Under the pieces are notes generated by a model. The model had not been told where the DNA came from. It ran no database searches and saw nothing but the letters and a program-made list of their open reading frames with translations. Position numbers and translations under genes: made by a program. Shown piece by piece: positions 33,910 to 57,003 of a DNA stretch of 64,000 nucleotides (position 1 is the first letter of the stretch; every line of letters begins with the position of its first letter). The stretch covers positions 1,116,001-1,180,000 of the forward strand of contig JAGKQI010000081.1 of assembly GCA_018806915.1 (NCBI GenBank), read 5' to 3'. Source of the DNA: Phytophthora colocasiae (Eukaryota; Oomycota; Peronosporomycetes; Peronosporales; Peronosporaceae).

Positions 33910-34547
33910 TCTCTACCCTCTAGGCTAGTGCCGTGTCTGTGTGTCTGTGTGTCTGTTCAACGTCGTAGCGCATAAACCTGCGTAGCTACCTGTCTCTCCA
34001 TTTTGTACATGTACGTATTCTATACTGTATTTTCCCATGGTGTAGCCTATCCCTATGTTCTAGACTGCTCTCAGGAATGCCAAAATTACAAATATAGCCC
34101 ACTAATGATAACCCTCTCAATGGCCTCTGATTGGTCCGCACACCCGGCCACAAAATAATTGATTGGACAAAATGAAGCTAAGTACGATTAAAATGCTGAG
34201 CTGCCCGCTTTACAGACCGGTGATTGGCTAAAATACATCCTACCGAGCGAAGCGAAGGTAGCACCTCGGCCAACTGGCGCGCGCCGAAGGTGTGGCGCCG
34301 ATGGTAGTAGTGGAGCGAACTGGAACAGTGAGCCCACGGGTTTCAACCAAACACATACAAACCGCCCGCAAAGCGGGCGGCACTGCTAAAATACATCCTA
34401 CCGAGCGAAGCGAAGGTAGCACCTCGGCCAACCGGCGCGCGCCGAAGGTGTGGCGCCGATGGTGAGTAGTGGGCGAACTGGAACAGTTCACCACGGGTTT
34501 CAACCAAACACATACACACCGCCCGCAAAAGCGGGCGGCACTGCTGG
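33910..34547 (+). mobile_element. Helitron unit 1, 638 bp, non-autonomous
   Basis: Preceded by A at 33,909, as expected for an A^T target. Two 3' modules. It ends CTGG rather than CTAG, and its spacer after the hairpin is CACTG instead of CACTCGG. Confidence 0.75.
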
Positions 34548-35954
34548 TCTCTACTCTCTAGGCTAGTGGCGTCTGTGTGTCCGTTGTGTGTGTGTTCAAC
34601 GTCTTAGCGCATAAACCTGCGTAGCTACCTGTCTCTCCATTTCGTACATGTAGGTTTTCCATACTGTATTGTCCCATGGTGTAGCCTATCCCTATGTTCT
34701 AGACTGCTCTCAGGAATGCCAAAATTACAAATATAGCCCACTAATGATAACCCTCTCCATGGCCTCTGATTGGTCCGCACACCCGGCCACAAAATTTTCA
34801 TTGGACAAAAGTAAGCTAAGTACGATTAAAATGCTGAGCTGCCCCGCTTTACAGACCGGTGATTGGCTAAAATGCATCCTACCGAGCGAAGCGAAGGTAG
34901 CACCTCGGCCAACTGGCGCGCGCCGAAGGTGTGGCGCCGATGGAGAGTAGTGGGGCGAACTGGAACAGTGAGCCCCACGGGTTTCAACCAAACACATACA
35001 AACCGCCCGCAAAAGCGGGCGGCACTCGGCTAAAATTGCTTCGATAAGTACGAAATATTAGCTGCGAGCTCGCAGCCCCCACTGGTGATTGGCTAAAATA
35101 CATCCTACCGAGCGAAGCGAAGGTAGCACCTCGGCCAACTGGCGCGCGCCGAAGGTGTGGCGCCGGTGGTGAGTAGTGGAGCGAACTGGAACAGTGAGCA
35201 CCACGGGTTTTAACCAAACACATACAAACCGCCCGCAAAAGCGGGCGGCACTCGGCTAAAATTGCTTCGATAAGTACGAAATAGTAGCTGCGAGCTCGCG
35301 AGCTCGCAGCCCCCACTGGTGATTGGCTAAAATACATCCTACCGAGCGAAGCGAAGGTAGCACCTCGGCCAACTGGCGCGCGCCGAAGGTGTGGCGCCGA
35401 TGGAGAGTAGTGGGGCGAACTGGAACAGTGAGCACCACGGGTTTCAACCAAACACATACAAACCGCCCGCAAAAGCGGGCGGCACTCGGCTAAAATTGCT
35501 TCGATAAGTACGAAATAGTAGCTGCGAGCTCGCAGCCCCCACTGGTGATTGGCTAAAATACATCCTACCGAGCGAAGCGAAGGTAGCACCTCGGCCAACT
35601 GGCGCGCGCCGAAGGTGTGGCGCCGATGGTGAGTAGTGGGGCGAACTGGAACAGTGAGCCCCACGGGTTTCGACCAAACACATACAAACCGCCCGCAAAA
35701 GCGGGCGGCACTCGGCTAAAATTGCTTCGATAAGTACGAAATAGTAGCTGCGAGCTCGCGAGCTCGCAGCCCCCACTGGTGATTGGCTAAAATACATCCT
35801 ACCGAGCGAAGCGAAGGTAGCACCTCGGCCAACTGGCGCGCGCCGAAGGTGTGGCGCCGATGGAGAGTAGTGGGGCGAACTGGAACAGTGAGCCCCACGG
35901 GTTTTTAACCAAACACATACAAACCGCCCGCAAAAGCGGGCGGCACTCGGCTAG
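34548..35954 (+). mobile_element. Helitron unit 2, 1407 bp, non-autonomous
   Basis: Longest short unit, with five 3' modules. Four of the hairpins are followed by CTAA and a ~75-nt linker with the CTGCGAGCTCG palindrome; the last ends CTAG. Confidence 0.75.
35288..35309. repeat. 22-bp perfect palindrome in the inter-module linker (type example)
   Basis: Two inverted 11-mers, CTGCGAGCTCG and CGAGCTCGCAG, abut with no spacer. The same palindrome recurs in most long linkers of the array (for example about 35,748, 36,641, 37,447, 39,474, 42,505). A 14-bp version (CTGCGAGCTCGCAG) replaces it in others, for example about 35,052 and 38,355. Confidence 0.85.
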
Positions 35955-37008
35955 TCTCTACCCTCTAGGCTAGTGCCGTGTCTGTGTGTCTGTGTGTCTG
36001 TGTGTCTGTGTGTCCGTTGTGTGTGTGTTCAACGTCTTAGCGCATAAACCTGCGTAGCTACCTGTCTCTCCATTGTGTACATGTACGTATTCTATACTGT
36101 ATTTTCCCATGGTGTAGCCTATCCCTATGTTCCAGACTGCTCTCAGGAATGCCAAAATTACAAATATAGCCCACTAATGATAACCCTCTCCATGGCCTCT
36201 GATTGGTCCGCACACCCGGCCACAAAATATTTAATTAAACAAAAGTAAGCTAAGTACGATTAAAATGCTGAGCTGCCCCGCTTTACAGACCGGTGATTGG
36301 CTAAAATGCATCCTACCGACCTCGGCCAACCGGCGCGCGCCGAAGGTGTGGCGCCGATGGTGAGTAGTGGGGCGAACCGGAACAGTGAGCACCACGGGCT
36401 TCAACCAAACACATACAAACTGCCCGCAAAAGCGGGCGGCACTCGGCTAAAATACATCCTACCGAGCGAAGCGAAGGTAGCACCTCGGTCAACTAGCGCG
36501 CCGAAGGTGTGGCGCCGATGGTGAGTAGTGGGGCGAACTGGAACAGTGAGCACCACGGGCTTCAACCAAACACATACAAACCGCCCGCAAAAGCGGGCGG
36601 CACTCGGCTAAAATTGCTTCGATAAGTACGAAATAGTAGCTGCGAGCTCGCGAGCTCGCAGCCCACACTGGTGATTGGCTAAAATACATCCTACCGAGCG
36701 AAGCGAAGGTAGCACCTCGGCCAACTGGCGCGCGCCGAAGGTGTGGCGCCGGTGGTGAGTAGTGGAGCGAACTGGAACAGTGAGCACCACGGGTTTCAAC
36801 CAAACACATACACACCGCCCGCAAAAGCGGGCGGCACTCGGCTAAAATACATCCTACCGAGCGAAGCGAAGGTAGCACCTCGGCCAACTGGCGCGCGCCG
36901 AAGGTGTGGCGCCGATGGTGAGTAGTGGGGCGAACTGGAACAGTGAGCACCACGGGCTTCAACCAAACACATACAAACCGCCCGCAAAAGCGGGCGGCAC
37001 TCGGCTAG
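35955..37008 (+). mobile_element. Helitron unit 3, 1054 bp, non-autonomous
   Basis: Four 3' modules. The first lacks part of the GAGCGAAGCG stretch (near 36,320), a deletion also present in unit 9, which marks the two as sister copies. Confidence 0.75.
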
Positions 37009-37814
37009 TCTCTACCCTCTAGGCTAGTGCCGTGTCTGTGTGTCTGTGTGTCTGTGTGTCTGTGTGTCCGTTGTGTGTGTGTTCAACGTCTTAGCGCATA
37101 AACCTGCGTAGCTACCTGTCTCTCCATTGTGTACATGTACGTATTCTATACTGTATTTTCCCATAGTGTAGCCTATCCCTACGTTCTAGACTGCTCTCAG
37201 GAATGCCAAAATTACAAATATAGCCCACTAATGATAACCCTCTCAATGGCCTCTGATTGGTCCGCACACCCGGCCACAAAATATTTGATTGGACAAAAGT
37301 AAGCAAAGTACGATTAAAACCCGATGAAGAGTAGTGGGGCGAACTGGAACAGTGAGCCCCACGGGTTTCGACCAAACACATACAAACCGCCCGCAAAAGC
37401 GGGCGGCACTCGGCTAAAATTGCTTCGATAAGTACGAAATAGTAGCTGCGAGCTCGCGAGCTCGCAGCCCCCACTGGTGATTGGCTAAAATACATCCTAC
37501 CGAGCGAAGCGAAGGTAGCACCTCGGCCAACTGGCGCGCGCCGAAGGTGTGGCGCCGATGGAGAGTAGTGGGGCGAACTGGAACAGTGAGCCCCACGGGT
37601 TTCAACCAAACACATACAAACCGCCCGCAAAAGCGGGCGGCACTCGGCTAAAATACATCCTACCGAGCGAAGCGAAGGTAGCACCTCGGTCAACTGGCGC
37701 GCGCCGAAGGTGTGGCGCCGATGGTGAGTAGTGGGGCGAACTGGAACAGTGAGCACCACGGGTTTCAACCAAACACATACAAACCGCCCGCAAAAGCGGG
37801 CGGCACTCGGCTAG
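37009..37814 (+). mobile_element. Helitron unit 4, 806 bp, non-autonomous
   Basis: Three 3' modules. The 5' module is cut short near 37,320 and joins the middle of a 3' module, removing the CCGGTGATTGGC block. Confidence 0.75.
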
Positions 37815-38944
37815 TCTTTACTCTCTAGGCTAGTGCCGTGTCTGTGTGTCTGTGTGTCTGTGTGTCTGTGTGTCCGTTGTGTGTGTGTTCAACGTCTTAG
37901 CGCATAAACCTGCGTAGCTACCTGTCTCTCCATTTTGTACATGTACGTATTCTATACTGTATTTTCCCATGGTGTAGCCTATCTCTACGTTCTAGACTGC
38001 TCTCAGGAATGCCAAAATTACAAATATAGCCCACTAATGATAACCCTCTCAATGGCCTCTGATTGGTCCGCACACCCGGCCACAAAATATTTAATTGGAC
38101 AAAAGTAAGCTAAGTACGATTAAAATGCTGAGCTGCCCCGCTTTACAGACCGGTGATTGGCTAAAATGCATCCTACCGAGCGAAGCGAAGGTAGCACCTC
38201 GGCCAACTGGCGCGCGCCGAAGGTGTGGCGCCGATGGTGAGTAGTGGGGCGAACTGGAACAGTGAGCACCACGGGTTTCAACCAAACACATACAAACCGC
38301 CCGCAAAAGCGGGCGGCACTCGGCTAAAATTGCTTCGATAAGTACGAAATAGTAGCTGCGAGCTCGCAGCCCCCACTGGTGATTGGCTAAAATACATCCT
38401 ACCGAGCGAAGCGAAGGTAGCACCTCGGCCAACTGGCGCGCGCCGAAGGTGTGGCGCCGGTGGTGAGTAGTGGAGCGAACTGGAACAGTGAGCACCACGG
38501 GTTTCAACCAAACACATACAAACCGCCCGCAAAAGCGGGCGGCACTCGGCTAAAATTGCTTCGATAAGTACGAAATAGTAGCTGCGAGCTCGCGAGCTCG
38601 CAGCCCCCACTGGTGATTGGCTAAAATACATCCTACCGAGCGAAGCGAAGGTAGCACCTCGGCCAACTGGCGCGCGCCGAAGGTGTGGCGCCGATGGAGA
38701 GTAGTGGGGCGAACTGGAACAGTGAGCACCACGGGTTTCAACAAAACACATACACACCGCCCGCAAAAGCGGGCGCCACGCAGCTAAAATACATCCTACC
38801 GAGCGAAGCGGTAGCACCTCGGTCAACTGGCGCGCGCCGAAGGTGTGGCGCCGATGGTGAGAAAAGTGCGAACTGGAACAGTGAGCTCCCTACGGGTTTC
38901 AACCAAACACATACAAACCGCCCGCAAAGCGGGCGGCACTCGGC
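37815..38944 (+). mobile_element. Helitron unit 5, 1130 bp, non-autonomous
   Basis: Begins TCTTTACTC. Four 3' modules; the third has a mutated hairpin arm (GCGGGCGCC). The right boundary is irregular: CTCGGC joins TCTACCCC without a full CTAG. Confidence 0.7.
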
Positions 38945-39678
38945 TCTACCCCTCTCTCTAGCCGTGTCTGTGTGTCTGTGTGTCTGTGTGTCCGTTGTGT
39001 GTGTGTTCAACGTCTTAGCGCATAAACCTGCGTAGCTACCTGTCTCTCCATTTCGTACATGTAGGTTTTCCATACTGTATTTTCCCATGGTGTAGCCTAT
39101 CCCTATGTTCTAGACTGCTCTCAGGAATGCCAAAATTACAAATATAGCCCACTAATGATAACCCTCTCAATGGCCTCTGATTGGTCCGCACACCCGGCCA
39201 CAAAATATTTAATTGGACAAAAGTAAGCTAAGTACGATTAAAATGCTGAGCTGCCCCGCTTTACAGACCGGTGATTGGCTAAAATGCATCCTACCGAGCG
39301 AAGCGAAGGTAGCACCTCGGCCAACTGGCGCGCGCCGAAGGTGTGGCGCCGATGGTGAGTAGTGGGGCGAACTGGAACAGTGAGCCCCACGGGTTTCGAC
39401 CAAACACATACAAACCGCCCGCAAAAGCGGGCGGCACTCGGCTAAAATTGCTTCGATAAGTACGAAATAGTAGCTGCGAGCTCGCGAGCTCGCAGCCCCC
39501 ACTGGTGATTGGCTAAAATACATCCTACCGAGCGAAGCGAAGGTAGCACCTCGGCCAACTGGCGCGCGCCGAAGGTGTGGCGCCGATGGTGAGTAGTGGG
39601 GCGAACTGGAACAGTGAGCACCACGGGCTTCACCCAAACACATACAACCCGCCCGCAAAGCGGGCGGCACTCGGCTAG
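38945..39678 (+). mobile_element. Helitron unit 6, 734 bp, non-autonomous
   Basis: The 5' tip is degenerate (TCTACCCCTCTC). Two 3' modules, separated by a linker with the 22-bp palindrome. Ends CTAG. Confidence 0.7.
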
Positions 39679-40422
39679 TCTCTGCCCTCTAGGCTAGTGC
39701 CGTGTCTGTGTGTCTGTGTGTCTGTGTGTCTGTGTGTCCGTTGTGTGTGTGTTCAACGTCGTAGCGCATAAACCTGCGTAGCTACCTGTCTCTCCATTTT
39801 GTACATGTACGTATTCTATACTGTATTTTCCCATGGTGTAGCCTATCCCTATGTTCTAGACTGCTCTCAGGAATGCCAAAATTACAAATATAGCCCACTA
39901 ATGATAACCTCTCAATGGCCTCTGATTGGTCCGCACACCCGGCCACAAAACTTTGATTGGACAAAATGAAGCTAAGTACGATTAAAATGCTGAGCTGCCC
40001 GCTTTACAGACCGGTGATTGGCTAAAATGCATCCTACCGAGCGAAGCGAAGGTAGCACCTCAACCAACTGGCGCGCGCCGAAGGTGTGGCGCCGATGGTG
40101 AGTAGTGGGGCGAACTGGAACAGTGAGCCCCACGGGTTTCAACCAAACACATATAAACCGCCCGCAAAAGCGGGCGGCACTCGGCTAAAATTGCTTCGAT
40201 AAGTACGAAATAGTAGCTGCGAGCTCGCGAGCTCGCAGCCCCCACTGGTGATTGGCTAAAATACATCCTACCGAGCGAAGCGAAGGTAGCACCTCGGTCA
40301 ACTGGCGCGCGCCGAAGGTGTGGCGCCGATGGTGAGTAGTGGGGCGAACTGGAACAGTGAGCCCCACGGGTTTCAACCAAACACATACAAACCGCCCGCA
40401 AAAGCGGGCGGCACTCGGCTAG
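39679..40422 (+). mobile_element. Helitron unit 7, 744 bp, non-autonomous
   Basis: Starts with the G variant (TCTCTGCCC). Two 3' modules; the first has CTCAACC in place of CTCGGCC. Confidence 0.75.
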
Positions 40423-40919
40423 TCTCTACCCTCTAGGCTAGTGCGGTGTCTGTGTGTCTGTGTGTCCGTTGTGTGTGTGTTCAACGTCGTAGCGCATAAA
40501 CCTGCGTAGCTACCTGTCTCTCCATTTTGTACATGTACGTATTCTATACTGTATTTTCCCATGGTGTAGCCTATCCCTATGTTCTAGACTGCTCTCAGGA
40601 ATGCCAAAATTACAAATATAGCCCACTAATGATAACCCTCTCAATGGCCTCTGATTGGTCCGCACACCCGGCCACAAAATATTTAATTGGACAAAAGTAA
40701 GCTAAGTACGATTAAAATGCTGAGCTGCCCCGCTTTACAGACCGGTGATTGGCTAAAATGCATCCTACCGAGCGAAGCGAAGGTAGCACCTCGGCCAACT
40801 GGCGCGCGCCGAAGGTGTGGCGCCGATGGTGAGTAGTGGGGCGAACTGGAACAGTGAGCCCCACGGGTTTCAACCAAACACATACAAACCGCCCGCAAAA
40901 GCGGGCGGCACTCGGCTAG
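40423..40919 (+). mobile_element. Helitron unit 8, 497 bp, minimal unit
   Basis: One 5' module and a single 3' module with one hairpin and CTAG. This is the simplest version and probably the ancestral non-autonomous structure. Confidence 0.8.
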
Positions 40920-41964
40920 TCTCTGCCCTCTAGGCTAGTGCCGTGTCTGTGTGTCTGTGTGTCTGTGTGTCCGTTGTGTGTGTGTTCAACGTCTAAGCGC
41001 ATAAACCTGCGTAGCTACCTGTCTCTCCATTGTGTACATGTACGTATTCTATACTGTATTTTCCCATGGTGTAGCCTATCCCTATGTTCCAGACTGCTCT
41101 CAGGAATGCCAAAATTACAAATATAGCCCACTAATGATAACCCTCTCAATGGCCTCTGATTGGTCCGCACACCCGGCCACAAAATATTTGATTGGACAAA
41201 ATTAAGCAAAGTACGATTAAAATGCTGAGCTGCCCCGCTTTACAGACCGGTGATTGGCTAAAATGCATCCTACCGACCTCGGCCAACCGGCGCGCGCCGA
41301 AGGTGTGGCGCCGATGGTGAGTAGTGGGGCGAACCGGAACAGTGAGCACCACGGGCTTCAACCAAACACATACAAACTGCCCGCAAAAGCGGGCGGCACT
41401 CGGCTAAAATACATCCTACCGAGCGAAGCGAAGGTAGCACCTCGGTCAACTAGCGCGCCGAAGCGTGTGGCGCCGATGAAGAGTAGTGGGGCGAACTGGA
41501 ACAGTGAGCACCACGGGCTTCCACCAAACACATCCAACCCGCCCGCAAAAGCGGGCGGCACTCGGCTAAAATTGCTTCGATAAGTACGAAATAGTAGCTG
41601 CGAGCTCGCGAGCTCGCAGCCCCCACTGGTGATTGGCTAAAATACATCCTACCGAGCGAAGCGAAGGTAGCACCTCGGCCAACTGGCGCGCGCCGAAGGT
41701 GTGGCCCGGTGGTGGTAGTGGAGCGAACTGGAACAGTGAGCACCACGGGTTTCAACCAAACACATACACACCGCCCGCAAAAGCGGGCGGCTGCTCACTA
41801 AATACATCCTGCCGAGCGGAGGCGAAGGTAGCACCTCGGCCAACTGGCGCGCGCCGAAGGTGTGGCGCCGATGGAGAGTAGTGGGGCGAACTGGAACAGT
41901 GAGCCCCACGGGTTTCAACCAAACACATACAAACCGCCCGCAAAAGCGGGCGGCACTCGGCTAG
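40920..41964 (+). mobile_element. Helitron unit 9, 1045 bp, non-autonomous
   Basis: Four 3' modules. It shares the first-module deletion with unit 3 but carries additional small lesions near 41,460 and 41,800. Confidence 0.75.
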
Positions 41965-43268
41965 TCTCTACCCTCTAGGCTAGTGCCGTGTCTGTGTGTC
42001 TGTGTGTCTGTGTGTCTGTGTGTCCGTTGTGTGTGTGTTCAACGTCTTAGCGCATAAACCTGCGTAGCTACCTGTCTCTCCATTGTGTACATGTACGTAT
42101 TCTATACTGTATTTTCCCATAGTGTAGCCTATCCCTATCTTCTAGACTGCTCTCAGGAATGCCAAAATTACAAATATAGCCCACTAATGATAACCCTCTC
42201 AATGGCCTCTGATTGGTCCGCACACCCGGCCACAAAATATTTGATTGGACAAAATTAAGCAAAGTACGATTAAAATGCTGAGCTGCCCCGCTTTACAGAC
42301 CGGTGATTGGCTAAAATACATCCTACCGAGCGAAGCGAAGGTAGCACCTCGGCCAACTGGCGCGCGCCGAAGGTGTGGCGCCGGTGGTGAGTAGTGGGGC
42401 GAACTGGAACAGTGAGCCCCACGGGTTTCAACCAAACACAAACAAACCGCCCGCAAAAGCGGGCGGCACTCGGCTAAAATTGCTTCGATAAGTACGAAAT
42501 AGTAGCTGCGAGCTCGCGAGCTCGCAGCCCCCACTGGTGATTGGCTAAAATACATCCTACCGAGCGAAGCGAAGGTAGCACCTCGGCCAACTGGCGCGCG
42601 CCGAAGGTGTGGCGCCGGTGGTGAGTAGTGGGGCGAACTGGAACAGTGAGCCCCACGGGTTTCAACCAAACACATACAAACCGCCCGCAAAAGCGGGCGG
42701 CACTCGGCTAAAATACATCCTACCGAGCGAAGCGAAGGTAGCACCTCGGCCAACTGGCGCGCGCCGAAGGTGTGGCGCCGATGGAGAGTAGTGGGGCGAA
42801 CTGGAACAGTGAGCCCCACGGGTTTTAACCAAACACATACAAACCGCCCGCAAAAGCGGGCGGCACTCGGCTAAAATACATCTTACCGAGCGAAGCGAAG
42901 GTAGCACCTCGGCCAACTGGCGCGCGCCGAAGGTGTGGCGCCGATGGTGAGTGGTGGGGCGAACTGGAACAGTGAGCACCACGGGTTTCAACCAAACACA
43001 TACAAACCGCCCGCAAAAGCGGGCGCCACTCGGCTAAAATTGCTTCGATAAGTACGAAATAGTAGCTGCGAGCTCGCGAGCTCGTAGCCCCCACTGGTGA
43101 TTGGCTAAAATACATCCTACCGAGCGAAGCGAAGGTACCTTGGCCAACTGGCGCGCGCCGAAGGTGTGGCGCCGATGGAGAGTAGTGGGGCGAACTGGAA
43201 CAGTGAGCCCCACGGGTTTCACCCAAACACATACAAACCGCCCGCAAAAGCGGGCGGCACTCGGCTAG
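41965..43268 (+). mobile_element. Helitron unit 10, 1304 bp, non-autonomous
   Basis: Five 3' modules. Same length and module order as unit 11, including a shared GCGGGCGCC hairpin-arm change and a shared AAGGTACCTTGG deletion. Confidence 0.8.
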
Positions 43269-44572
43269 TCTCTACCCTCTAGGCTAGTGCCGTGTCTGTG
43301 TGTCTGTGTGTCTGTGTGTCTGTGTGTCCGTTGTGTGTGTGTTCAACGTCTTAGCGCATAAACCTGCGTAGCTACCTGTCTCTCCATTGTGTACATGTAC
43401 GTATTCTATACTGTATTTTCCCATAGTGTAGCCTATCCCTATCTTCTAGACTGCTCTCAGGAATGCCAAAATTACAAATATAGCCCACTAATGATAACCC
43501 TCTCAATGGCCTCTGATTGGTCCGCACACCCGGCCACAAAATATTTGATTGGACAAAATGAAGCAAAGTACGATTAAAATGCTGAGCTGCCCCGCTTTAC
43601 AGACCGGTGATTAGCTAAAATACATCCTACCGAGCGAAGCGAAGGTAGCACCTCGGCCAACTGGCGCGCGCCGAAGGTGTGGCGCCGGTGGTGAGAAGTG
43701 GGGCGAACTGGAACAGTGAGCCCCACGGGTTTCAACCAAACACAAACAAACCGCCCGCAAAAGCGGGCGGCACTCGGCTAAAATTGCTTCGATAAGTACG
43801 AAATAGTAGCTGCGAGCTCGCGAGCTCGCAGCCCCCACTGGTGATTGGCTAAAATACATCCTACCGAGCGAAGCGAAGGTAGCACCTCGGCCAACTGGCG
43901 CGCGCCGAAGGTGTGGCGCCGGTGGTGAGTAGTGGGGCGAACTGGAACAGTGAGCCCCACGGGTTTCAACCAAACACATACAAACCGCCCGCAACCGCGG
44001 GCGGCACTCGGCTAAAATACATCCTACCGACCGAAGCGAAGGTAGCACCTCGGCCAACTGGCGCGCGCCGAAGGTGTGGCGCCGATGGAGAGTAGTGGGG
44101 CGAACTGGAACAGTGAGCCCCACGGGTTTTAACCAAACACATACAAACCGCCCGCAAAAGTGGGCGGCACTCGGCTAAAATACATCTTACCGAGCGAAGC
44201 GAAGGTAGCACCTCGGCCAACTGGCGTGCGCCGAAGGTGTGGCGCCGATGGTGAGTGGTGGGGCGAACTGGAACAGTGAGCACCACGGGTTTCAACCAAA
44301 CACATACAAACCGCCCGCAAAAGCGGGCGCCACTCGGCTAAAATTGCTTCGATAAGTACGAAATAGTAGCTGCGAGCTCGCGAGCTCGTAGCCCCCACTG
44401 GTGATTGGCTAAAATACATCCTACCGAGCGAAGCGAAGGTACCTTGGCCAACTGGCGCGCGCCGAAGGTGTGGCGCCGATGGAGAGTAGTGGGGCGAACT
44501 GGAACAGTGAGCCCCACGGGTTTCACCCAAACACATACAAACCGCCCGCAAAAGCGGGCGGCACTCGGCTAG
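43269..44572 (+). mobile_element. Helitron unit 11, 1304 bp, near-duplicate of unit 10
   Basis: Differs from unit 10 by scattered substitutions, for example a hairpin loop and arm changed to CAACCGCGGGCGG near 43,992, pointing to recent whole-unit duplication. Confidence 0.8.
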
Positions 44573-45490: not shown

Positions 45491-46378
45491 GATTTAAATT
45501 CTAGGATTCTTTCATTCCAAAACGCAAACGGCGTCAGCAGCGACAGAGGACATTACGCGAACGGCGCGGCGGCTAGCGAGGACAGGAGTGATCGAGCGGC
45601 GCAGCCAGCCTAGGAATACTCGGTAAGTACCCATATAAACATAATACAGCTATCAAATCTTTACGGTGTCGGGTGTTCCGCCTTGTGGGAGAACTGGTAC
45701 CACATTGGGGCAACTGGGAGCTGGTGTGTACAAAATTAAGGGTGGGCTGGAGCCTGCGGAGGACTCTGACAGGTCCTCTGCGGGGCTTGAGGGAGGGTTG
45801 CAGTGGGTGCCACGCCACGGCCATTCTGACCGAGACCCCTCTCGAGCGCACAGACGCCGGGCAGTCCACCTCCGAATCTACAATATTGCCCATTTAAGCA
45901 AGTAAGCCATCCCTGCGGGTACTTTGGTGAAAATTGAAATTTGGGTACTGTAGCTTTGCGCCCAAATCCATGACCTTCCCATTTTTGGGATAAAAGGTTG
46001 CAGCTGGCCACCCTTCGCCGTTCCTGTCTCAGTTCTGCCTCTCTATTGCTCTTCGGAGCCCCGACCCTGAGACGCCCATGTTCGCCCGCCAGCGGCATGG
46101 GAAGCCTCATACCAATCCGGGGTCCTGGGGTAGATCCATGTGGCGATAAAAGCCGGCTTGGCCGGGCCGCCCACCTCAGCCTTGGGCCAGTGGTCGTGTG
46201 TGAGACCGGCACATGTTATGGAGACATTTCATGCTGCTTACCGTGTCAGGGGCAGAACGGCATGCACTGCATGTTCCCATTCACCTATCAAGAATTAGTT
46301 TACAGTTAAAATACAATTATTCAGTGTTAGACCGTTGTCTAACGCTGCTTCCTTTGTGCTTTTTTGCGAGGGAAGGCT
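45491..46378 (+). other. Non-coding 5' interior of the autonomous Helitron
   Basis: About 890 nt absent from the short units. It includes a possible splice donor (CGGTAAGT at about 45,621) and G+C-rich sequence on both strands with overlapping short frames but no recognisable protein. It may be leader/intron sequence, captured host sequence, or another nested element. I see no long terminal repeats or target duplication. Confidence 0.4.
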
Positions 46379-46619
46379 ATGGCTCCGGTCAGGGTCGGCA
46401 CGAAGCGGGATAGGTACGTAAAATTAATGTTTCGTGCTGTTGGAAGTCTTCTAACATTCTACTGTGTAGAGACGACCGTCGAGGACAGCTGCAGCATCGT
46501 TTAGACGAAGCGGAGCGCGTGAACGCAACTCCAGCAGAGGATGAATCGCCTACTGCAAAGCGACGACGGATCAACAGAAGGAAGCAGGCACGCAACCGTT
46601 TTCGAGGGCTTCGCGAGAA

Positions 46620-47129
46620 TTGGAACTACTCAGTCAGCAGGTAAACAACGTTTCGGTTTCAGGCGACCCCATTGTAGCCCCTGTAGATGCACCGGTGGTT
46701 CCTCCGACAGGAACAACCATGGCCCCCACTACGAATCCATCCAGTGCTGCGGCGCTTAGGATGAGTGACGCAGAGAGAGCCAGGCTGCGGCGGGCAAATA
46801 TGAGCTCTTCCCAACGCGAACGTACGCGGCAACGGGATGCCGAACGCCAGCGGCAACGGAGAGCTCAACGAAGTGCTGAACAAATGGTAGCAGATCGCGA
46901 AAGAAACCGACTTGGACAGCAAAATCGACGTCAGACGGATGAGGAGCGTGCGGCAGAGAGAGAACGGGACCGAGAGCGTCACGCCATTAGAAGGGCGTTA
47001 CAAACGGAGGAAGAGCGCGAAGAGGAGCGCGAGCGTGTTCGAGAACGTCGACGTATCACTCGCCATCGAAAAGCACTTCTAAACCATGAAGATTTCCGTC
47101 CTTCGATGGTCAGCAGGTCCAGATGTTGA
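46620..47129 (+). CDS. Helitron N-terminal basic/coiled-coil region
   Basis: The in-frame ATG is at 46,719. The product is extremely rich in Arg, Glu and Gln (RERTRQRDAERQRQRRA..), a coiled-coil leader typical of oomycete Helitron proteins just before the Rep domain. Upstream, an ATG at 46,379 followed by a candidate intron (GTACGT.. at about 46,413 to TGTAG at about 46,469, branch TTCTAAC) and a basic second exon to about 46,640 may be the true beginning, though the frames do not join cleanly. The frame ends at 47,129, overlapping the next one, whose protein continues the same order. It is thus probably part of one RepHel polypeptide. Confidence 0.55.
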   Translation: MELLSQQVNNVSVSGDPIVAPVDAPVVPPTGTTMAPTTNPSSAAALRMSDAERARLRRANMSSSQRERTRQRDAERQRQRRAQRSAEQMVADRERNRLGQQNRRQTDEERAAERERDRERHAIRRALQTEEEREEERERVRERRRITRHRKALLNHEDFRPSMVSRSRC

Positions 47130-50100
47130 TGAAGACACCAGACGCCACCGGCTGCCTCCCACTACGGTGTGCGGTCATTGTAACGCGTGGAAGTGGCCTG
47201 GTGAAAGCGGGTCTGCCTGCTGTATCGAGGGGAAAGTCAGACTACCACCTCTGGCCCCAGCTCCAGACGAACTTCTCCAGCTTTACGGAGACCCCAATTT
47301 TCGAAAGCAGATACGGGCGTACAACCAGGCGTTTGCCTTTACGTCTATCGGTGCTTCAAACCCGAACACGGGTAGGTTTCAGAACGTCAACCAGGACAAC
47401 AGCGTCGCGGGTGAACGTGGCGTATACTCCTACCGAATTCAAGGTGCTATGGGCCACTACATGGGTTCGTTGTTGCCATACATTGATCGTCGAACTGGCC
47501 AAAGGACTCAGCCCAAGTTTGCGCAGATCTATATCGTCAATCCGGACATGGAGCGCCGAGCTGAGAGACGTATGGGGATTTTCGCAGACCTGGACCCTGT
47601 GGCTTTGTTAGACATCGAGCGGGTGATGCAAAGGTACAACCCGTTCGCTCAGCAGTTTCTCACGTTTGGCGAAAGGGTGCGTCAAAGCGATATGCAGCAG
47701 CCAATCGACTTGGTGTTCCGTCTGAGAAACAATCCTTCCAGACCTCGAACGGAAAATCTGCCGACGGTTTCTGAAGTGGCCGTCACTATGATTGAAGACG
47801 GCAACCTCGCACAGCCTCGCGATCTCTTGGTATATACAAAGACAGAAATCTCATGCGTCTCTGGGAAACAAACGCCAACTACGACCCCCTTCAGTACCCG
47901 CTACTTCTTCCGTATGGAGAACTGGGGTGGACGTATACGGATACGTACGAAGGTGATGTGGTGCGCAGGAACAAACGCGCTATGGCTCTACGTGAGCACG
48001 TCGCGTATCGACTCTTCCAAAAGGACGATGACCGATCAGCTCTACATAAAGGGGGGCGCCTTTTCCAACAGTATTGTGTGGACCAGAGAGCCAAATGCGA
48101 GCAAGAAGAACTTCGCTGGATAGCAACTCACCAGAAGGAGATCCGTGCTTACCAGTACAATGGACTGCGAGATGCGTACCTGAGCGAAGCTATGGAAGAG
48201 GCTAGGACTATCCTGGGCGATGGCGAAGGCCTCCTAGCGGAATATGATCGCGAGACTGGAGAGCTGGCTCACCCCGACCGAGCCCGAAACAGGCACTTCC
48301 TCAATCAGGTTGGGAAGAAGATCATCTTACCGTCTTCTCACTCAGGGAGCCCGCGTCAGATGTACCAATCGTACCAAGACTCGATGGCAATCGTTAGGGA
48401 GTACGGCAAGCCAGATATCTTCGACACGATGACTTGCAATCCAAAGTGGGAAGAGATCCAAGAGCAGATTCGCGATCCTAACCAGAGCGCCCAAGACCGC
48501 CCAGACATCGTCGCGAGAGTATGGCAGCAAAAGCTGGCTGCTCATTTAAAAGACTTAGACGAGGGTGTGCTTGGGCGGGTTTCCGCTCGGATTTACGTGG
48601 TGGAGTTTCAAAAGCGTGGACTTCCTCATGCGCACATCATTGTCATCTTGGCGGACGAGGACAAGCCACGCACAAGGCAGATTATTGACAAGATTGTATC
48701 GGCGGAAGTACCGGATCCTGACACCAACCCCGGCCTTTATGAAACGGTCATGACGAATATGATGCACGGGCCCTGTGGCGCGGCGAATCCATCGTGTGTC
48801 TGTATGAAGGATGGCAAGTGTACAAAGGGCTACCCGAAACCGTTCGTGGAGACAACGCGGGTGAGCGAAGACGGTTTCCCGCAGTACAGACGCCGACGAC
48901 GATCGGAAGGATTTTTTACATTCAATGGAAGACGGTACGACAATGCTACGCTGAATCAGTGGGTGGTGCCATACAACCCTTACTTTTCATACAAGTACAA
49001 CTGCCACATCAACATTGAAATCTGCACAGCACTGTCAGTGGTGAAGTATCTCTACAAGTACGTGTACAAGGGATCCGACAGAGCTGTGATTACAGTGGAG
49101 ACGGTGCAAGACGAAGGTAATATCGACAGACGGGAACCCAACGAGATCATCCGATACTTAAGCGCGAGGTACATCTCTCCCATTGAGGCGTGTATGCGTC
49201 TCCTCGGGCACGTAGTGCAAGGGAAGTCCCATGCGGTTTTCCAGCTCACGGTACACCTCGAAGGTGAGCAGATGGTGGTATTCCGCGAGACCGAAGATCC
49301 GGAACGCGTCATGGATCGTAGTGAGCGCACGAAGCTTACTGCCTTCTTCGACATATGTGCGAGTAGAGCGCCCGAAGACCAGTTAGCTAAGACAATTGTG
49401 TATCAGGATGTGCCGAAGTACTTTAGATGGGACAAACACAAGATATGGGTCCGCCGCAAAAAGTATCAAGCTGCACTAGGACGAATGATTCACGTGTCTC
49501 CGCGAGATGAGGAGAGGTTCTACTTACGCGTCTTGCTATGCCATCGCAAAGGACCTACTTCTTTCCAGGATATCCGGACTGTGGATAACGTCGTATGTGG
49601 ATCGTATAAGGATGCCGCGTTACGTCTAGGATATCTCGAGAATGATGAGGAGTGGGCAGCCTGTATGGAGGAAGCCGCGACGTTCCAGATGGCGTATCAA
49701 CTGCGTCAGCTATTTGCTACGCTGTTAGTATACTCTCAGGTTGGGCAGGTGCGTCAGCTATGGGATAATTACTACGGAGCATTGTCTGAGGATTTCCACC
49801 GTCGATTCCGCGCCATGGAAGGCCAGGCGAGGGACGACGTGGTGATGTTTAACACGCTCAAGAGTCTGAACGAGTTGCTTCAAGTGAGTGGGAAAGCGGT
49901 ACATGAGTTTAACCTTCCACAACTTGCCGATTTCCCTGATCTGCTTCTTCGAGACGCACTCCAGACCAACAACAGTTTGATTGACCGCGAGACCATGGCG
50001 TATGACTATCACATGCTTCAAGAAATTGTGGAGCATGAGGATGGACTTAATGAAGGTCAACAAGCTATCTACGCGAAAGTCATAGCGGCTGTCGATGGAT

Positions 50101-51533
50101 CTTCAGAAGGCAACAAGTTATTTTTTCTGGATGGACCTGGTGGTACTGGAAAATCAACTTTGCTCAAGCACATCCTGGCAAAAGTTCGTTTGTCTGGGAA
50201 AATTGCCATTGCGGTAGCTTCGAGTGGAATTGCCGCACTTCTACTAATGGGTGGTCGCACTGCACATTCTACCTTTCGAATCCCGCTAAAGCTGAATGCG
50301 GAGTCTACGTGTGCGATCAATAAGAACTCCGCCCTGAAGGAACTTATCAAGATGGCCAGTTTAATTATCTGGGACGAAGCTCCGATGGCCCATCGTCACG
50401 CTTTTGAGGCTGTGGACCGTTCGCTACGGGATATCTTGGACATCGATGAACCATTTGGCGGGAAAGTGGTCGTCCTTTCAGGAGATTTCAGACAAATTCT
50501 ACCGGTGGTACTGCAGGGAACGCCTGCCGATACCATCGACGCGTGTCTAAAGTCTTCGGAGTTGTGGAGCAAATTCGAACAAGTTCATCTTACGGAGAAC
50601 ATGCGTGTGAGGTCGGCTGCGAATGAAACGACAGCGGAAGAACTGGCAGCATTCTCTGAGTTTCTCCTTCAAGTGGGCGAAGGAAGGCACCAAGTGAATG
50701 CTGGACTTGGACCAGATTTCATCAAGATCCCGAACGACATGTTGATTGAGAGCGAACCGGAGGAGGAGCCGGAAGAAGAAGATGAAGAGGTTCGGCCTGG
50801 CACCACTCCCAGAGGCATGCGACGCATCATTGACGAGATGTATGCAGACATTAATAACCCTGAGATCGCCACGGATGAGTACTTTGCCAACCGAACGATA
50901 TTGACGACTACGAACATGATCGTGCAGCGTATCAACGAAGCTGTTTCTCAGAAGCTGGAAGGTGACGCCCAGGAGTATTTGTCCAACGATTCAGTGGATA
51001 ATGACGGTGACGCTGATTACTTTGAGCCTGAACTCCTGCATTCAGTGAATATGAACGGAATCCCGCCGCACAAACTAACTCTGAAGAAGGGTGCGCCGAT
51101 CATGATGATGCGCAACCTGAATCCCAATCTTGGACTGTGCAACGGAACGCGCCTCCGTGTTGTGGAGCTGAAACCTCACGTGATCCATGCGACCATCATG
51201 ACAGGGGAACGCCACGGCCAGCATGTGTTCATTCCGCGGATTGTGTTCCTCAGTGACGGGGACACGCGTGAGTTCCCCTTCCGTCTACGTCGTAAGCAGT
51301 TCCCAGTGCAACCAGCGTTTGCGATGACAATCAACAAGGCCCAAGGACAAACGGTACAAAATCTCGGACTATACTTGGCGACTCCTTGCTTCTCACACGG
51401 ACAGCTGTACGTGGCGTTATCGAGAGTGACAGCGCGGTCGAGACTCAAGGTGATGATCGAGTATCCTGACCAGGTGGACGCCGATGGAGTGTACACACAG
51501 AATATTGTTTACCGACAGATATTCGAGATGTAA
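47086..51533 (+). CDS. Helitron RepHel: HUH replication initiator plus PIF1-type helicase (one frame change)
   Basis: A first frame, 47,086 to about 47,850, holds a CxxC zinc-finger-like start and the Helitron-like N region. The second frame, 47,853-51,533 (1226 codons), continues it after a -1 shift near 47,848. Rep motifs: FDTMTCNPKW (~48,417), the HxH of GLPHAHIIV (~48,620) for metal binding, and the two-tyrosine YLYKYVYKG (~49,047), which nicks DNA in rolling-circle transposition. Helicase motifs: Walker A GPGGTGKST (~50,131), Walker B IIWDEAP (~50,366), GDFRQILPVV (~50,480), and the C-terminal INKAQGQT and YVALSR motifs. All key residues are present, so the enzyme looks active apart from the frame change, which could be an assembly indel. 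Confidence 0.85.
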
Positions 51534-51738
51534 GCAAGAGGCAGAAAGAGATCACTGCATTTTTCATAACAACAAATACATGTTCACTGTGCATATGAAA
51601 CACTGTGTATGTTTTTGTCCCCTCCGAGCGAAGCGAAGGCAGGGGATACAGAGTAGTAGGGCGAGCTGGAACAGCGAGCACTACGGGTTGGGACCTAACA
51701 CATACACACCGCCCGCAAAGCGGGCGGCACTCGGCTAG

Positions 51739-52378
51739 TCTCTGCCCTCTAGGCTAGTGCCGTGTCTGTGTGTCTGTGTGTCTGTTAGCGCATAAACCTG
51801 CGTAGCTACCTGTCTCTCCATTTTGTATATGTACGTATTCTATACTGTATTTTCCCATAGTGTAGCCTATCCCTATGTTCCAGACTGCTCTCAGGAATGC
51901 CAAAATTACAAATATAGCCCACTAATGATAACCCTCTCAATGGCCTCTGATTGGTCCGCACACCCGGCCACAAAATATTTAATTGGACAAAAGTAAGCTA
52001 AGTACGATTAAAATGCTGAGCTGCCCCGCTTTACAGACCGGTGATTGGCTGAAATGCATCCTACCGAGCGAAGCGAAGGTAGCACCTCGGCCAACTGGCG
52101 CGCGCCGAAGGTGTGGCGCCAAAGGTGAGTAGTGGGGCGAACTGGAACAGTGAGCCCCACGGGTTTCAACCAAACACATACAAACCGCCCGCAAAAGCGG
52201 GCGGCACTCGGCTAAAATACATCCTACCGAGCGAAGCGAAGGTAGCACCTCGGTCAACTGGCGCGCGCCGAAGGTGTGGCGCCAAAGGTGAGTAGTGGGG
52301 CGAACTGGAACAGTGAGCCCCACGGGTTTCAACCAAACACATACAAACCGCCCGCAAAAGCGGGCGGCACTCGGCTAG
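51739..52378 (+). mobile_element. Helitron unit 14, 640 bp, non-autonomous
   Basis: First unit right of the autonomous copy. The 5' microsatellite is short and the GTTCAACGTC word is lost. Both 3' modules read GCGCCAAAGG where most units read GCGCCGATGG. Confidence 0.75.
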
Positions 52379-53035
52379 TCTCTACCCTCTAGGCTAGTGC
52401 GGTGTCTGTGTGTCTGTGTGTCCGTTGTGTGTGTGTTCAACGTCTTAGCGCATAAACCTGCGTAGCTACCTGTCTCTCCATTGTGTACATGTACGTATTC
52501 TATACTGTATTGTCCCATGGTGTAGCCTATCCCTATCTTCTAGACTGCTCTCAGGAATGCCAAAATTACAAATATAGCCCACTAATGATAACCCTCTCAA
52601 TGGCCTCTGATTAATCCGCACACCCGGCCACAAAATATTTGATTGGACAAAATGAAGCAAAGTACGATTAAAATGCTGAGCTGCCCCGCTTTACAGACCG
52701 GTGATTGGCTAAAATGCATCCTACCGAGTGAAGCGAAGGTACCTCGGCCAACAGGCGCGCGCCGAAGGTGTGGCGCCGATGGTGAGTAGTGTGGCGAACT
52801 GGAACAGTGAGCCCCACGGGTTTCAACCAAACACATACAAACCGCCCGCAAAAGCGGGCGGCACTCGGCTAAAATACATCCTACCGAGCGAAGCGAAGGT
52901 AGCACCTCGGTCAACTGGCGCGCGCCGAAGGTGTGGCGCCGATGGTGAGTAGTGGGGCGAACTGGAACAGTGAGCCCCACGGGTTTCAACCAAACACATA
53001 CAAACCGCCCGCAAAAGCGGGCGGCACTCGGCTAG
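52379..53035 (+). mobile_element. Helitron unit 15, 657 bp, non-autonomous
   Basis: Founding member type of the homogeneous right block: CTGATTAATCCGC in place of CTGATTGGTCCGC, and GAGTGAAGCG in the first 3' module. Two modules joined directly, without the palindromic linker. Confidence 0.8.
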
Positions 53036-53692
53036 TCTCTACCCTCTAGGCTAGTGCCGTGTCTGTGTGTCTGTGTGTCCGTTGTGTGTGTGTTCAACGT
53101 CTTAGCGCATAAACCTGCGTAGCTACCTGTCTCTCCATTGTGTACATGTACGTATTCTATACTGTATTGTCCCATGGTGTAGCCTATCCCTATCTTCTAG
53201 ACTGCTCTCAGGAATGCCAAAATTACAAATATAGCCCACTAATGATAACCCTCTCAATGGCCTCTGATTAATCCGCACACCCGGCCACAAAATATTTGAT
53301 TGGACAAAATGAAGCAAAGTACGATTAAAATGCTGAGCTGCCCCGCTTTACAGACCGGTGATTGGCTAAAATGCATCCTACCGAGTGAAGCGAAGGTACC
53401 TCGGCCAACCGGCGCGCGCCGAAGGTGTGGCGCCGATGGTGAGTAGTGTGGCGAACTGGAACAGTGAGCCCCACGGGTTTCAACCAAACACATACAAACC
53501 GCCCGCAAAAGCGGGCGGCACTCGGCTAAAATACATCCTACCGAGCGAAGCGAAGGTAGCACCTCGGTCAACTGGCGCGCGCCGAAGGTGTGGCGCCGAT
53601 GGTGAGTAGTGGGGCGAACTGGAACAGTGAGCCCCACGGGTTTCAACCAAACACATACAAACCGCCCGCAAAAGCGGGCGGCACTCGGCTAG
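53036..53692 (+). mobile_element. Helitron unit 16, 657 bp, near-identical to unit 15
   Basis: Same length and same diagnostic variants as unit 15, with only a few substitutions (for example CCAACCGGCG versus CCAACAGGCG). Confidence 0.8.
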
Positions 53693-54352
53693 TCTCTACC
53701 CTCTAGGCTAGTGCGGTGTCTGTGTGTCTGTGTGTCCGTTGTGTGTGTGTTCAACGTCTTGGCGCATAAACCTGCGTAGCTACCTGTCTCTCCATTGTGT
53801 ACATGTACGTATTCTATACTGTATTGTCCCATGGTGTAGCCTATCCCTATCTTCTAGACTGCTCTCAGGAATGCCAAAATTACAAATATAGCCCACTAAT
53901 GATAACCCTCTCAATGGCCTCTGATTAATCCGCACACCCGGCCACAAAATATTTGATTGGACAAAATGAAGCAAAGTACGATTAAAATGCTGAGCTGCCC
54001 CGCTTTACAGACCGGTGATTGGCTAAAATGCATCCTACCGAGTGAAGCGAAGGTAGCACCTCGGCCAACCGGCGCGCGCCGAAGGTGTGGCGCCGATGGT
54101 GAGTAGTGTGGCGAACTGGAACAGTGAGCCCCACGGGTTTCAACCAAACACATACAAACCGCCCGCAAAAGCGGGCGGCACTCGGCTAAAATACATCCTA
54201 CCGAGCGAAGCGAAGGTAGCACCTCGGTCAACTGGCGCGCGCCGAAGGTGTGGCGCCAAAGGTGAGTAGTGGGGCGAACTGGAACAGTGAGCCCCACGGG
54301 TTTCAACCAAACACATACAAACCGCCCGCAAAAGCGGGCGGCACTCGGCTAG
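53693..54352 (+). mobile_element. Helitron unit 17, 660 bp, non-autonomous
   Basis: Right-block type. It retains GTAGCACC in the first module (three nt longer than units 15 and 16), and the second module has GCGCCAAAGG as in unit 14. Confidence 0.8.
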
Positions 54353-55020
54353 TCTCTACCCTCTAGGCTAGTGCGGTGTCTGTGTGTCTGTGTGTCCGTT
54401 GTGTGTGTGTTCAACGTCTTAGCGCATAAACCTGCGTAGCTACCTGTCTCTCCATTGTGTACATGTACGTATTCTATACTGTATTGTCCCATGGTGTAGC
54501 CTATCCCTATCTTCTAGACTGCTCTCAGGAATGCCAAAATTACAAATATAGCCCACTAATGATAACCCTCTCAATGGCCTCTGATTAATCCGCACACCCG
54601 GCCACAAAATATTTGATTGGACAAAATGAAGCAAAGTACGATTAAAATGCTGAGCTGCCCCGCTTTACAGACCGGTGATTGGCTAAAATGCATCCTACCG
54701 AGTGAAGCGAAGGTAGCACCTCGGTCAACCGGCGCGCGCCGAAGGTGTGGCGCCGGTGGTGAGTAGTGGGGCGAACTGGAACAGTGAGCACCACGGGTTT
54801 CAACCAAACACATACAAACCGCCCGCAAAAGCGGGCGGCACTCGGCTAAAATGCATCCTACCGAGCGAAGCGAAGGTAGCACCTCGGTCAACTGGCGCGC
54901 GCCGAAGGTGTGGCGCCGGTGGTGAGTAGTGGGGCGAACTGGAACAGTGAGCACCACGGGTTTCAACCAAACACATACAAACCGCCCGCAAAAGCGGGCG
55001 GCACTCGGCTAAAATACATC
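54353..55020 (+). mobile_element. Helitron unit 18, 668 bp, irregular right end
   Basis: Both modules have the GCGCCGGTGG variant. The right end does not stop at CTAG: it reads CTAAAATACATCC and then enters the CTACCCTCTAGG of the next unit, so a CTRR end was passed and the TCTCT tip of unit 19 is missing. Confidence 0.7.
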
Positions 55021-55683
55021 CTACCCTCTAGGCTAGTGCGGTGTCTGTGTGTCTGTGTGTCCGTTGAACTGTGTGTGTTCAACGTCTTAGCGCATAAACC
55101 TGCGTAGCTACCTGTCTCTCCATTGTGTACATGTACGTATTCTATACTGTATTGTCCCATGGTGTAGCCTATCCATCTTCTACTCAGCGAATGCCAAAAT
55201 TACAACTGGCGCGCGCCAAGGTGTGGCGCCGGTGGTGATAAACTGGAACAATGGCACTCTGATTAATCCGCACCACAAAATATTTGATTGGACAAAATGA
55301 AGCAAAGTACGATTAAAATGCTGAGCTGCCCCGCTTTACAGACCGGTGATTGGCTAAAATGCATCCTACCGAGCGAAGCGAAGGTAGCACCTCGGTCAAC
55401 TGGCGCGCGCCGAAGGTGTGGCGCCGGTGGTGAGTAGTGTGGCGAACTGGAACAGTGAGCCCCACGGGTTTCAACCAAACACATACAAACCGCCCGCAAA
55501 AGCGGGCGGCACTCGGCTAAAATACATCCTACCGAGCGAAGCGAAGGTAGCACCTCGGTCAACTGGCGCGCGCCGAAGGTGTGGCGCCGATGGTGAGTAG
55601 TGGGGCGAACTGGAACAGTGAGCCCCACGGGTTTCAACCAAACACATACAAACCGCCCGCAAAAGCGGGCGGCACTCGGCTAG
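55021..55683 (+). mobile_element. Helitron unit 19, 663 bp, damaged interior
   Basis: A scrambled stretch at about 55,170-55,275 contains a displaced GGCGCGCGCC/AAGGTGTGGCGCC piece inside the 5' module. Two normal 3' modules follow. Confidence 0.7.
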
Positions 55684-56343
55684 TCTCTACCCTCTAGGCT
55701 AGTGCGGTGTCTGTGTGTCTGTGTGTCCGTTGTGTGTGTGTTCAACGTCTTAGCGCATAAACCTGCGTAGCTACCTGTCTCTCCATTGTGTACATGTACG
55801 TATTCTATACTGTATTGTCCCATGGTGTAGCCTATCCCTATCTTCTAGACTGCTCTCAGGAATGCCAAAATTACAAATATAGCCCACTAATGATAACCCT
55901 CTCAATGGCCTCTGATTAATCCGCACACCCGGCCACAAAATATTTGATTGGACAAAATGAAGCAAAGTACGATTAAAATGCTGAGCTGCCCCGCTTTACA
56001 GACCGGTGATTGGCTAAAATGCATCCTACCGAGTGAAGCGAAGGTAGCACCTCGGCCAACCGGCGCGCGCCGAAGGTGTGGCGCCGATGGTGAGTAGTGT
56101 GGCGAACTGGAACAGTGAGCCCCACGGGTTTCAACCAAACACATACAAACCGCCCGCAAAAGCGGGCGGCACTCGGCTAAAATACATCCTACCGAGCGAA
56201 GCGAAGGTAGCACCTCGGTCAACTGGCGCGCGCCGAAGGTGTGGCGCCGATGGTGAGTAGTGGGGCGAACTGGAACAGTGAGCCCACGGGTTTCAACCAA
56301 ACACATACAAACCGCCCGCAAAAGCGGGCGGCCACTCAACTAG
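55684..56343 (+). mobile_element. Helitron unit 20, 660 bp, non-autonomous
   Basis: Right-block type. The spacer before the terminal CTAG is CCACTCAA instead of CACTCGG. Confidence 0.8.
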
Positions 56344-57003
56344 TCTCTACCCTCTAGGCTAGTGCGGTGTCTGTGTGTCTGTGTGTCCGTTGTGTGTGTG
56401 TTCAACGTCTTAGCGCATAAACCTGCGTAGCTACCTGTCTCTCCATTGTGTACATGTACGTATTCTATACTGTATTGTCCCATGGTGTAGCCTATCCCTA
56501 TCTTCTAGACTGCTCTCAGGAATGCCAAAATTACAAATATAGCCCACTAATGATAACCCTCTCAATGGCCTCTGATTAATCCGCACACCCGGCCACAAAA
56601 TATTTGATTGGACAAAATGAAGCAAAGTACGATTAAAATGCTGAGCTGCCCCGCTTTACAGACCGGTGATTGGCTAAAATGCATCCTACCGAGTGAAGCG
56701 AAGGTAGCACCTCGGCCAACCGGCGCGCGCCGAAGGTGTGGCGCCGATGGTGAGTAGTGTGGCGAACTGGAACAGTGAGCCCCACGGGTTTCAACCAAAC
56801 ACATACAAACCGCCCGCAAAAGCGGGCGGCACTCGGCTAAAATACATCCTACCGAGCGAAGCGAAGGTAGCACCTCGGTCAACTGGCGCGCGCCGAAGGT
56901 GTGGCGCCGATGGTGAGTAGTGGGGCGAACTGGAACAGTGAGCCCCACGGGTTTCAACCAAACACATACAAACCGCCCGCAAAAGCGGGCGGCACTCGGC
57001 TAG
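56344..57003 (+). mobile_element. Helitron unit 21, 660 bp, last unit
   Basis: Almost identical to unit 20. Its CTAG (57,000-57,003) is followed by TCAGATTATCAG, the flank that also occurs at 62,942 with no Helitron before it. Confidence 0.8.

Follow-up and report, generated by a model that had tools for sequence, protein, structure and literature searches.

A head-to-tail array of 21 canonical Helitrons in Phytophthora colocasiae, possibly assembled by insertion at the ends of resident Helitrons

Results

Organization of the array

We analysed a 64,000-nucleotide (nt) stretch of the Phytophthora colocasiae genome (hereafter the window; assembly GCA_018806915.1, contig JAGKQI010000081.1), in which positions 33910 to 57003 are occupied by 21 Helitron units, rolling-circle type transposons that here lie in one orientation, head-to-tail, from a first TC at 33910 to a last CTAG at 57003. 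The array, its transposase gene and its flanks comprise the following features:

33792..33909, + strand, left host flank with GACCA as its last letters and 97.5% identity to 62812-62929 (paralog alignment)
33910..57003, + strand, head-to-tail array of 21 Helitron units (ends and joints)
33910..34547, + strand, u01, the first unit, A-flanked (unit comparison)
34548..45271, + strand, u02 to u12, 11 units without transposase, 497-1406 base pairs (bp) long (unit cuts)
45272..51738, + strand, u13, 6467 bp, carrying RepHel, with TC and hairpin-CTAG ends like its neighbours
47086..48123, + strand, open reading frame (ORF) of 345 amino acids (aa) in another frame, covering the region ahead of the Rep domain (match to a P. 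infestans Helitron protein)
47853..51533, + strand, RepHel ORF, 1226 aa, with PIF1 helicase (domain and structure-database matches)
51739..57003, + strand, u14 to u21, u19 having an irregular starting joint at about 55013 (unit comparison)
56973..57003, + strand, 3' end of the array: 8-bp-stem hairpin, CACTCGG and CTAG, then T
57004..58200, + strand, right host flank starting TCAGATTATCAG, paralogous to 62942-64000 (alignment)
62930..62941, + strand, 12 bp, TCACTCTTGATA, between the two A^T points of the empty site and absent from the filled site

Unit lengths are 639, 1406, 1054, 806, 1126, 738 and 744 bp for u01 to u07; 497, 1045, 1304, 1304, 699, 6467 and 640 bp for u08 to u14; and 657, 657, 660, 660, 671, 660 and 660 bp for u15 to u21. 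The cut used for unit comparisons misplaces the start of u02 by 1 bp and that of u06 by about 3 bp. Eighteen of the 20 joints carry CTRG followed by TC with no spacer (CTAG in 17, CTGG in one, at 34548). The two irregular joints lie at about 38944, where CTAG is lost, and at 55013, which looks recombinant. All joints in the window are within one Helitron family. The unit end reads CCGCCCGC-AAAA-GCGGGCGG, an 8-bp stem with an AAAA loop, followed by the seven nucleotides CACTCGG and by CTAG. These results agree with a preliminary description of the locus made from its sequence, which had counted 21 head-to-tail units, a 3' hairpin with an 8-bp stem followed by seven nucleotides and CTAG or CTGG, and mostly spacer-free CTAG|TC junctions; cutting at the 20 joints and reading the unit ends recovered all three.

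At least one internal exact copy of the 3' end, ending in CTAA rather than CTAG and with the hairpin kept, is found in 18 of the 21 units. These internal copies belong to a 3' domain of about 163 bp that is tandemly repeated inside many of u02 to u21. A simple satellite was also considered for the block and is rejected because 18 of the 20 joints are Helitron ends and a transposase-bearing unit lies within.

Transposase and identity of the elements

The 1226-aa ORF of u13 matches the Pfam families Helitron_like_N (E 1.5e-59), PIF1 (E 1.5e-75) and Pif1_2B. Its best match among solved structures is Helraiser (7lcc, E 1.4e-247), to whose LPHAH and YLFKY stretches the LPHAH and YLYKY of u13 are aligned; we take these to be the HUH and tyrosine motifs. 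The 345-aa ORF is 73% identical over 235 aa to a P. infestans Helitron protein, in the region that precedes its Rep domain. Because this upstream region sits in another frame, the u13 copy of RepHel is broken in two frames. Judged by the best 120 of 3909 matches, u13 RepHel most resembles Phytophthora proteins: it is 69% identical over the whole query to proteins of P. infestans (a helitron helicase-like protein of 1791 aa) and P. ramorum, and 77% identical over 38% of the query to a P. fragariae protein. Helitron_like_N matches in the genome number at least 150, a lower bound since 150 of 229 first-look candidates were scored.

No endonuclease family is among the eight Pfam matches of the 1226-aa ORF at E 0.001, and a Helentron or Helitron2, which would have a C-terminal endonuclease domain, T-rich insertion sites and other ends, is ruled out by this result together with the TC and CTAG ends and the A^T target. 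The elements combine a 5' TC, a 3' CTRR, a 3' hairpin, insertion at A^T with no target duplication, and RepHel in a member that shares these ends. That the block is made up of canonical Helitrons from a single family, of which one member bears the transposase and 20 lack it, is strongly supported. The Helitron identity first proposed from the ends is thus substantiated by the RepHel ORF, by the A before and the T after the ends and by the paralogous empty site described below.

Genome-wide ends and the empty site

The 92.5-Mb assembly (105 contigs) was searched for the exact 5' end pattern TCTCTRCYCTCTAGGCTAGT and the exact 3' end pattern GCGGGCGGCACTCGGCTAG. We found 194 exact 5' ends, compared to none for a reversed-pattern control, preceded by CTRG in 140 cases, by A in 49 and by other sequence in five. 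A therefore precedes 49 of the 54 ends that are not joined to CTRG, A making up 25% of the window (binomial p 2e-24). The exact 3' end was found 279 times (control, 0), and the next nucleotide was T in all 279. In 90 fetched loci, 85 distinct 5' ends (at most three mismatches) are preceded by CTRG (64), A (19) or G (2). Solo copies such as C28:307036-307820 and C33:1433652-1432933 have ends that match the array boundaries. The preliminary description had named solo copies with other ends as an observation that would count against these boundaries; since the solo ends coincide with the TC and CTAG boundaries, no such mismatch is found in the copies read.

Within the same window, segment 62812-63320 is a paralog of both array flanks without the array. 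The empty site reads TTTCTGACCA TCACTCTTGATA TCAGATTATCAG and the filled site TTTCTGACCA, array, TCAGATTATCAG, so that in the empty copy an A^T corresponds to each edge of the array. The left flank aligns over 118 bp and the right flank is 87.6% identical over a 1117-column alignment. Judged from these alignments, the missing 12 bp may have been lost at insertion or may be a separate difference between the paralogs; both readings are kept because the paralogous flanks themselves differ (97.5% and 87.6% identity).

Joints between different Helitron families

Elsewhere in the genome, spacer-free joints also connect the array family to other Helitrons. The 5' end of a second family, F3 (TCAACTTCACAGTAAGATC), stands directly after CTRG at nine places and after A at ten. 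At five loci read (C57, C81, C104, C6 and C31) it directly follows the 3' end of the array family. The F3 copy at C81 shares just its first 75 bp with the others, and in the copy at C57 one stretch has 65% DNA identity to the region of u13 that encodes the helicase. The reverse order occurs at C5:958423 (L061), where a foreign hairpin end, GCGCCCGC-GTA-GCGGGCGC...CTAG, is joined without spacer to the 5' end of the array family; by eye, this foreign end lies just downstream of the end of an apparent RepHel gene.

Further 5' end types were seen right after CTAG of the array family: TCTCAACACAGT in eight cases, with the same body in the five compared, TCAACTTCACAG in five and TCYTAAAAAATG in three. 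Loci with other 5' types are L014 (from 1965) and sites on C6, C20, C22, C31, C32, C33, C36, C57, C81, C82, C83, C84, C94 and C104.

Two loci, L075 (C33:1031744) and L023 (C94:621978), have an A-flanked 19-nt 5' end (TC...GGCTAG) before a full 5' end. Each looks like the leftover of a unit deleted between its two copies of GGCTAGT, and this deletion explains the leftovers better than insertion at CTAG^T inside a 5' end, which we rejected. Neither in the window nor in the 90 loci did we find a 3' end running into the truncated rest of a 5' end.

Longer elements also occur in runs. Transposase-bearing units repeat at C50:1778917-1793022 (periods of 4695, 4705 and 4705 bp) and at C34:1104590-1124614 (6673, 6669 and 6682 bp); autonomous Helitrons thus apparently form arrays of their own. 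A Helitron_like_N type that is more distant (E about 2e-8 to 5e-21) is clustered at C30:1165-1200 kb and C41:138-147 kb and is perhaps another array-forming family.

Relatedness of units within and between arrays

Units were compared over their first 300 bp. The set of 104 comprised the 21 units of the window and 83 of 97 modules from the fetched loci, the other 14 having been dropped for a start or body unlike this Helitron family; the window array was fully read and most arrays outside it partly. The nearest relative, ties included, lay in the same array for 34 of 94 array units, compared to a mean of 10.9 and a maximum of 22 in 1000 label shuffles, so local copying is present and important. 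For the other 60 the nearest sampled relative lay solely outside, a share that is overstated for the arrays beyond the window because most were partly read. In the window array alone it lay outside for eight of 21 units, with one more tied.

Among adjacent pairs in the window, 15 of 20 are 94.6-98.3% identical over these 300 bp. Near-identity of neighbours, as a concatemer would lead one to expect, is found just at u10-u11 (99.4% over 1304 bp each) and in u15-u21 apart from u19: u15-u18, u20 and u21 share the same build and are 98.3-99.8% identical over about 657 bp. Local amplification explains these two groups.

The first unit, u01, shows 99.2-99.5% identity and 8-15 gaps when aligned with the units that open the arrays on C84, C6 and C46, and the four first units range from 98.7 to 99.8% identity over 622-645 bp (3-15 gaps). 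The 1400-bp upstream flanks of these four arrays have no similarity at E 1e-3. Their second units, of 1407 (window), 512 (C84), at least 1167 (C6, reaching the locus end) and 729 bp (C46), are 95.5-97.9% identical.

In a tree built from 5' modules, nine units that come from eight loci group together (Shimodaira-Hasegawa-like approximate likelihood ratio test, SH-aLRT, 89; 99 with a tenth row, C22:2140720). The group contains window u13 and units on C104, C20, C36, C44:892-902 kb (two rows), C81, C5 and C34, and in nine of nine a Helitron_like_N match lies 2.7-3.4 kb downstream on the same strand.

We also compared A-flanked with other units. C94_621978, with its 19-nt leftover, was left out of the tree and of this class test, as were, in the class test, five units without upstream A or CTRG, u19 included. 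A general rule that the first units of arrays are the youngest is not supported: an A-flanked unit was nearest to another A-flanked unit in 6 of 18 cases (4.8 expected), and the distances among A-flanked units speak against first units always being the youngest active type. As A-flanked units are not mutually closest, the four-array case is one subfamily. By a hand tally over partly read arrays, the closest relative lay outside for 11 of 12 first units and 49 of 82 others (Fisher one-sided p 0.027), a weak result because the arrays were just partly read.

Insertion at resident Helitron ends as a source of the array

There is roughly an even chance that the array was built mostly by separate insertions at the ends of resident Helitrons, some units being multiplied locally afterwards. 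More specifically, we infer that RepHel acts on resident Helitrons by nicking or targeting their ends. The landing site of a new copy would most simply be the A^T that the flanking A makes with the first T of the resident element. The product would be A|TC-new-CTAG|TC-resident, without spacer and with the same target restored for the next round; landing at the CTAG^T end of the resident would yield an identical product. Later, u10-u11 and u15-u21 would have been multiplied locally by unequal recombination or as rolling-circle multimers. Several findings favour this reading: the A before and the T after the exact ends, with A^T at both edges of the block; the RepHel of u13; the 60 of 94 array units, and eight of 21 in the window, whose nearest sampled relative lies solely outside their own array; the nine-unit group with its downstream Helitron_like_N matches; the four similar first units with dissimilar upstream flanks and differing second units; and the cross-family joints.

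The preliminary description had argued that independent insertions should leave A/T target nucleotides between units. This expectation does not hold, since an A^T at the edge of a resident element leaves nothing behind: the flanking A and the resident T together make the target, and by this logic a missing spacer is compatible with independent insertion. Because insertion and a rolling-circle multimer give the same joint, the joint alone cannot separate the two routes. A broader claim is possible but more doubtful: the A^T at the 5' edge of a resident Helitron, or the nick made there by RepHel, would be a preferred landing pad that every insertion restores, and arrays would grow unit by unit in the 5' direction even across families.

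Several observations weigh against insertion at resident ends. Adjacent units resemble each other beyond the random expectation (34 of 94 against a mean of 10.9), and on C46 the first and second units are 98.2% alike. The tree does not resolve the first units of the window, C84, C6 and C46 into a clade; A-flanked units are nearest one another in 6 of 18 cases against 4.8 expected, and their mean distance of 24.9 is above the random 20.5. No cross-family joint lies inside the window. Five of the ten A-flanked F3 ends fall in one cluster (C58:1803-1827 kb), and for this reason they need not represent separate insertions. One simple insertion does not account for the 12 bp by which the filled site is shorter than the empty one. 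Finally, ectopic recombination between arrays could move units and imitate part of the pattern.

Alternative origins

Unequal crossing-over and gene conversion, starting from a founding dimer and followed by exchange between arrays, would account for copy number and for shared unit types. The joint at 55013 looks recombinational by eye, the number of internal 3' domains varies, neighbours resemble each other more than random units do, and the 19-nt leftovers on C33 and C94 fit, also by eye, a deletion at the shared GGCTAGT. This route leaves both the first spacer-free joint and the cross-family joints unexplained. Moreover, judged by lengths and identities, the window has no repeating order of several unit types beyond u10-u11 and u15-u21. 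We consider it unlikely as the source of the array.

Transposition through an internal 3' end could move runs of several units jointly and so seed new arrays. The four arrays with a shared first unit do not fit such joint movement, as their second units are unlike in length and sequence, and we regard end-bypass as improbable even though passages of PMC4778049 and PMC5148889 describe bypass or read-through for Helraiser and near-identical units do occur across arrays (C6_519392 and C22_767818, in different arrays, have 0 differences in their first 300 bp).

The preliminary description had taken the spacer-free joints to mean a rolling-circle concatemer, that is a Helitron or circle copied repeatedly past its 3' end and inserted as a multimeric block. 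Such joints equal the precise TC-CTAG circle joint of Helraiser (PMC4778049), the whole block is bounded by A^T edges, and the likeness of u10 to u11 and among u15-u18, u20 and u21, with their common build, is what this process would give; for u10-u11 and u15-u21 it is possible. As the origin of the array it is quite improbable, and a single concatemer for the whole block is rejected because the units are heterogeneous. It does not explain a 6.5-kb transposase unit amid non-autonomous units of many lengths, the 15 of 20 adjacent pairs at 94.6-98.3%, the 60 of 94 units whose nearest sampled relative lies outside their array, or the cross-family joints elsewhere in the genome.

An assembly artefact, in which copies from many loci were merged or chained into one block, is scarcely credible, long as the repeat is, given many individually distinct units, clean A^T edges with a paralogous empty site and similar joints on many contigs.

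Genes around the array

A duplicated gene family stands on either side of the array in inverted orientation (30791-33559, - strand; 58168-61029, + strand), with related DNA at 22214-24849 and 25246-27242. The two copies are 75% identical in aa over 937 columns and nearly identical in their N-terminal half. They have no Pfam match at E 0.001; by eye, an SSGFGKSRM motif is P-loop-like. The left copy contains a 30-bp tandem repeat at 31390-31546. A complete Nop14-like gene lies at 18477-21191; its last 395 aa recur at 29470-30657 with 98% identity, as part of a duplication of about 2.7 kb (94.9%) within the window.

Discussion

The 140 of 194 exact 5' ends joined to CTRG, the empty site and the cross-family joints suggest that separate insertions can also make head-to-tail joints. 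If Helitron ends do act as landing pads, spacer-free head-to-tail arrays would no longer be a signature of rolling-circle concatemers, and this genome offers material for telling the two routes apart. The locus also illustrates that a transposon can form satellite-like blocks carrying a transposase gene.

Helitrons of Phytophthora have been described before. Passages of PMC4067079 report a 'proto-Helentron' family of P. infestans whose ends are canonical and whose insertions lie between A and T; the P. colocasiae elements resemble it in ends and target. These passages do not mention how that family is arranged in arrays. Helitrons and CRN clusters are treated in PMC9667082. Among the papers listed on Phytophthora Helitrons (20 of 100) and on oomycete tandem Helitrons (20 of 25), no title or abstract opening describes a Helitron array in oomycetes.

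Tandem arrangements are on record in other groups. In passages of PMC5876387, the tandem arrays and head-to-tail junctions found in plants and bats are said to support rolling-circle replication. PMC4067079 mentions tandem arrays for bat and silkworm and adds that in maize as well as bat Helitrons of distant relationship sometimes lie immediately side by side, a likeness to the cross-family joints described here. For the bat, silkworm and maize clusters, the passages of PMC4067079 and PMC5876387 give neither counts nor a test of the order of arrival; in the main text of PMC3789558, on silkworm, neither 'tandem' nor 'array' is present. In Metarhizium acridum, according to a passage of PMC5148889, three copies lie in tandem, and the choice between insertion at the 5' end and rolling-circle replication was left undecided. 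The Metarhizium and Fusarium Helitron2 elements of that source are similar to ours in their tandem copies but have non-canonical, Helitron2-type ends.

Tandem Helitron arrays of plants are attributed to rolling-circle amplification or circular intermediates in the passages of PMC12628747 and PMC5148889 that refer to Xiong et al., 2016. As described there, the copies in these arrays are truncated and partly decayed, and many have a single 3' end but several 5' ends. In contrast, both ends are kept at 18 of 20 joints in the P. colocasiae array, and one unit carries the transposase. Tandem Helitron arrays as such are already known; what this case adds is its scale, together with complete units and evidence for stacking.

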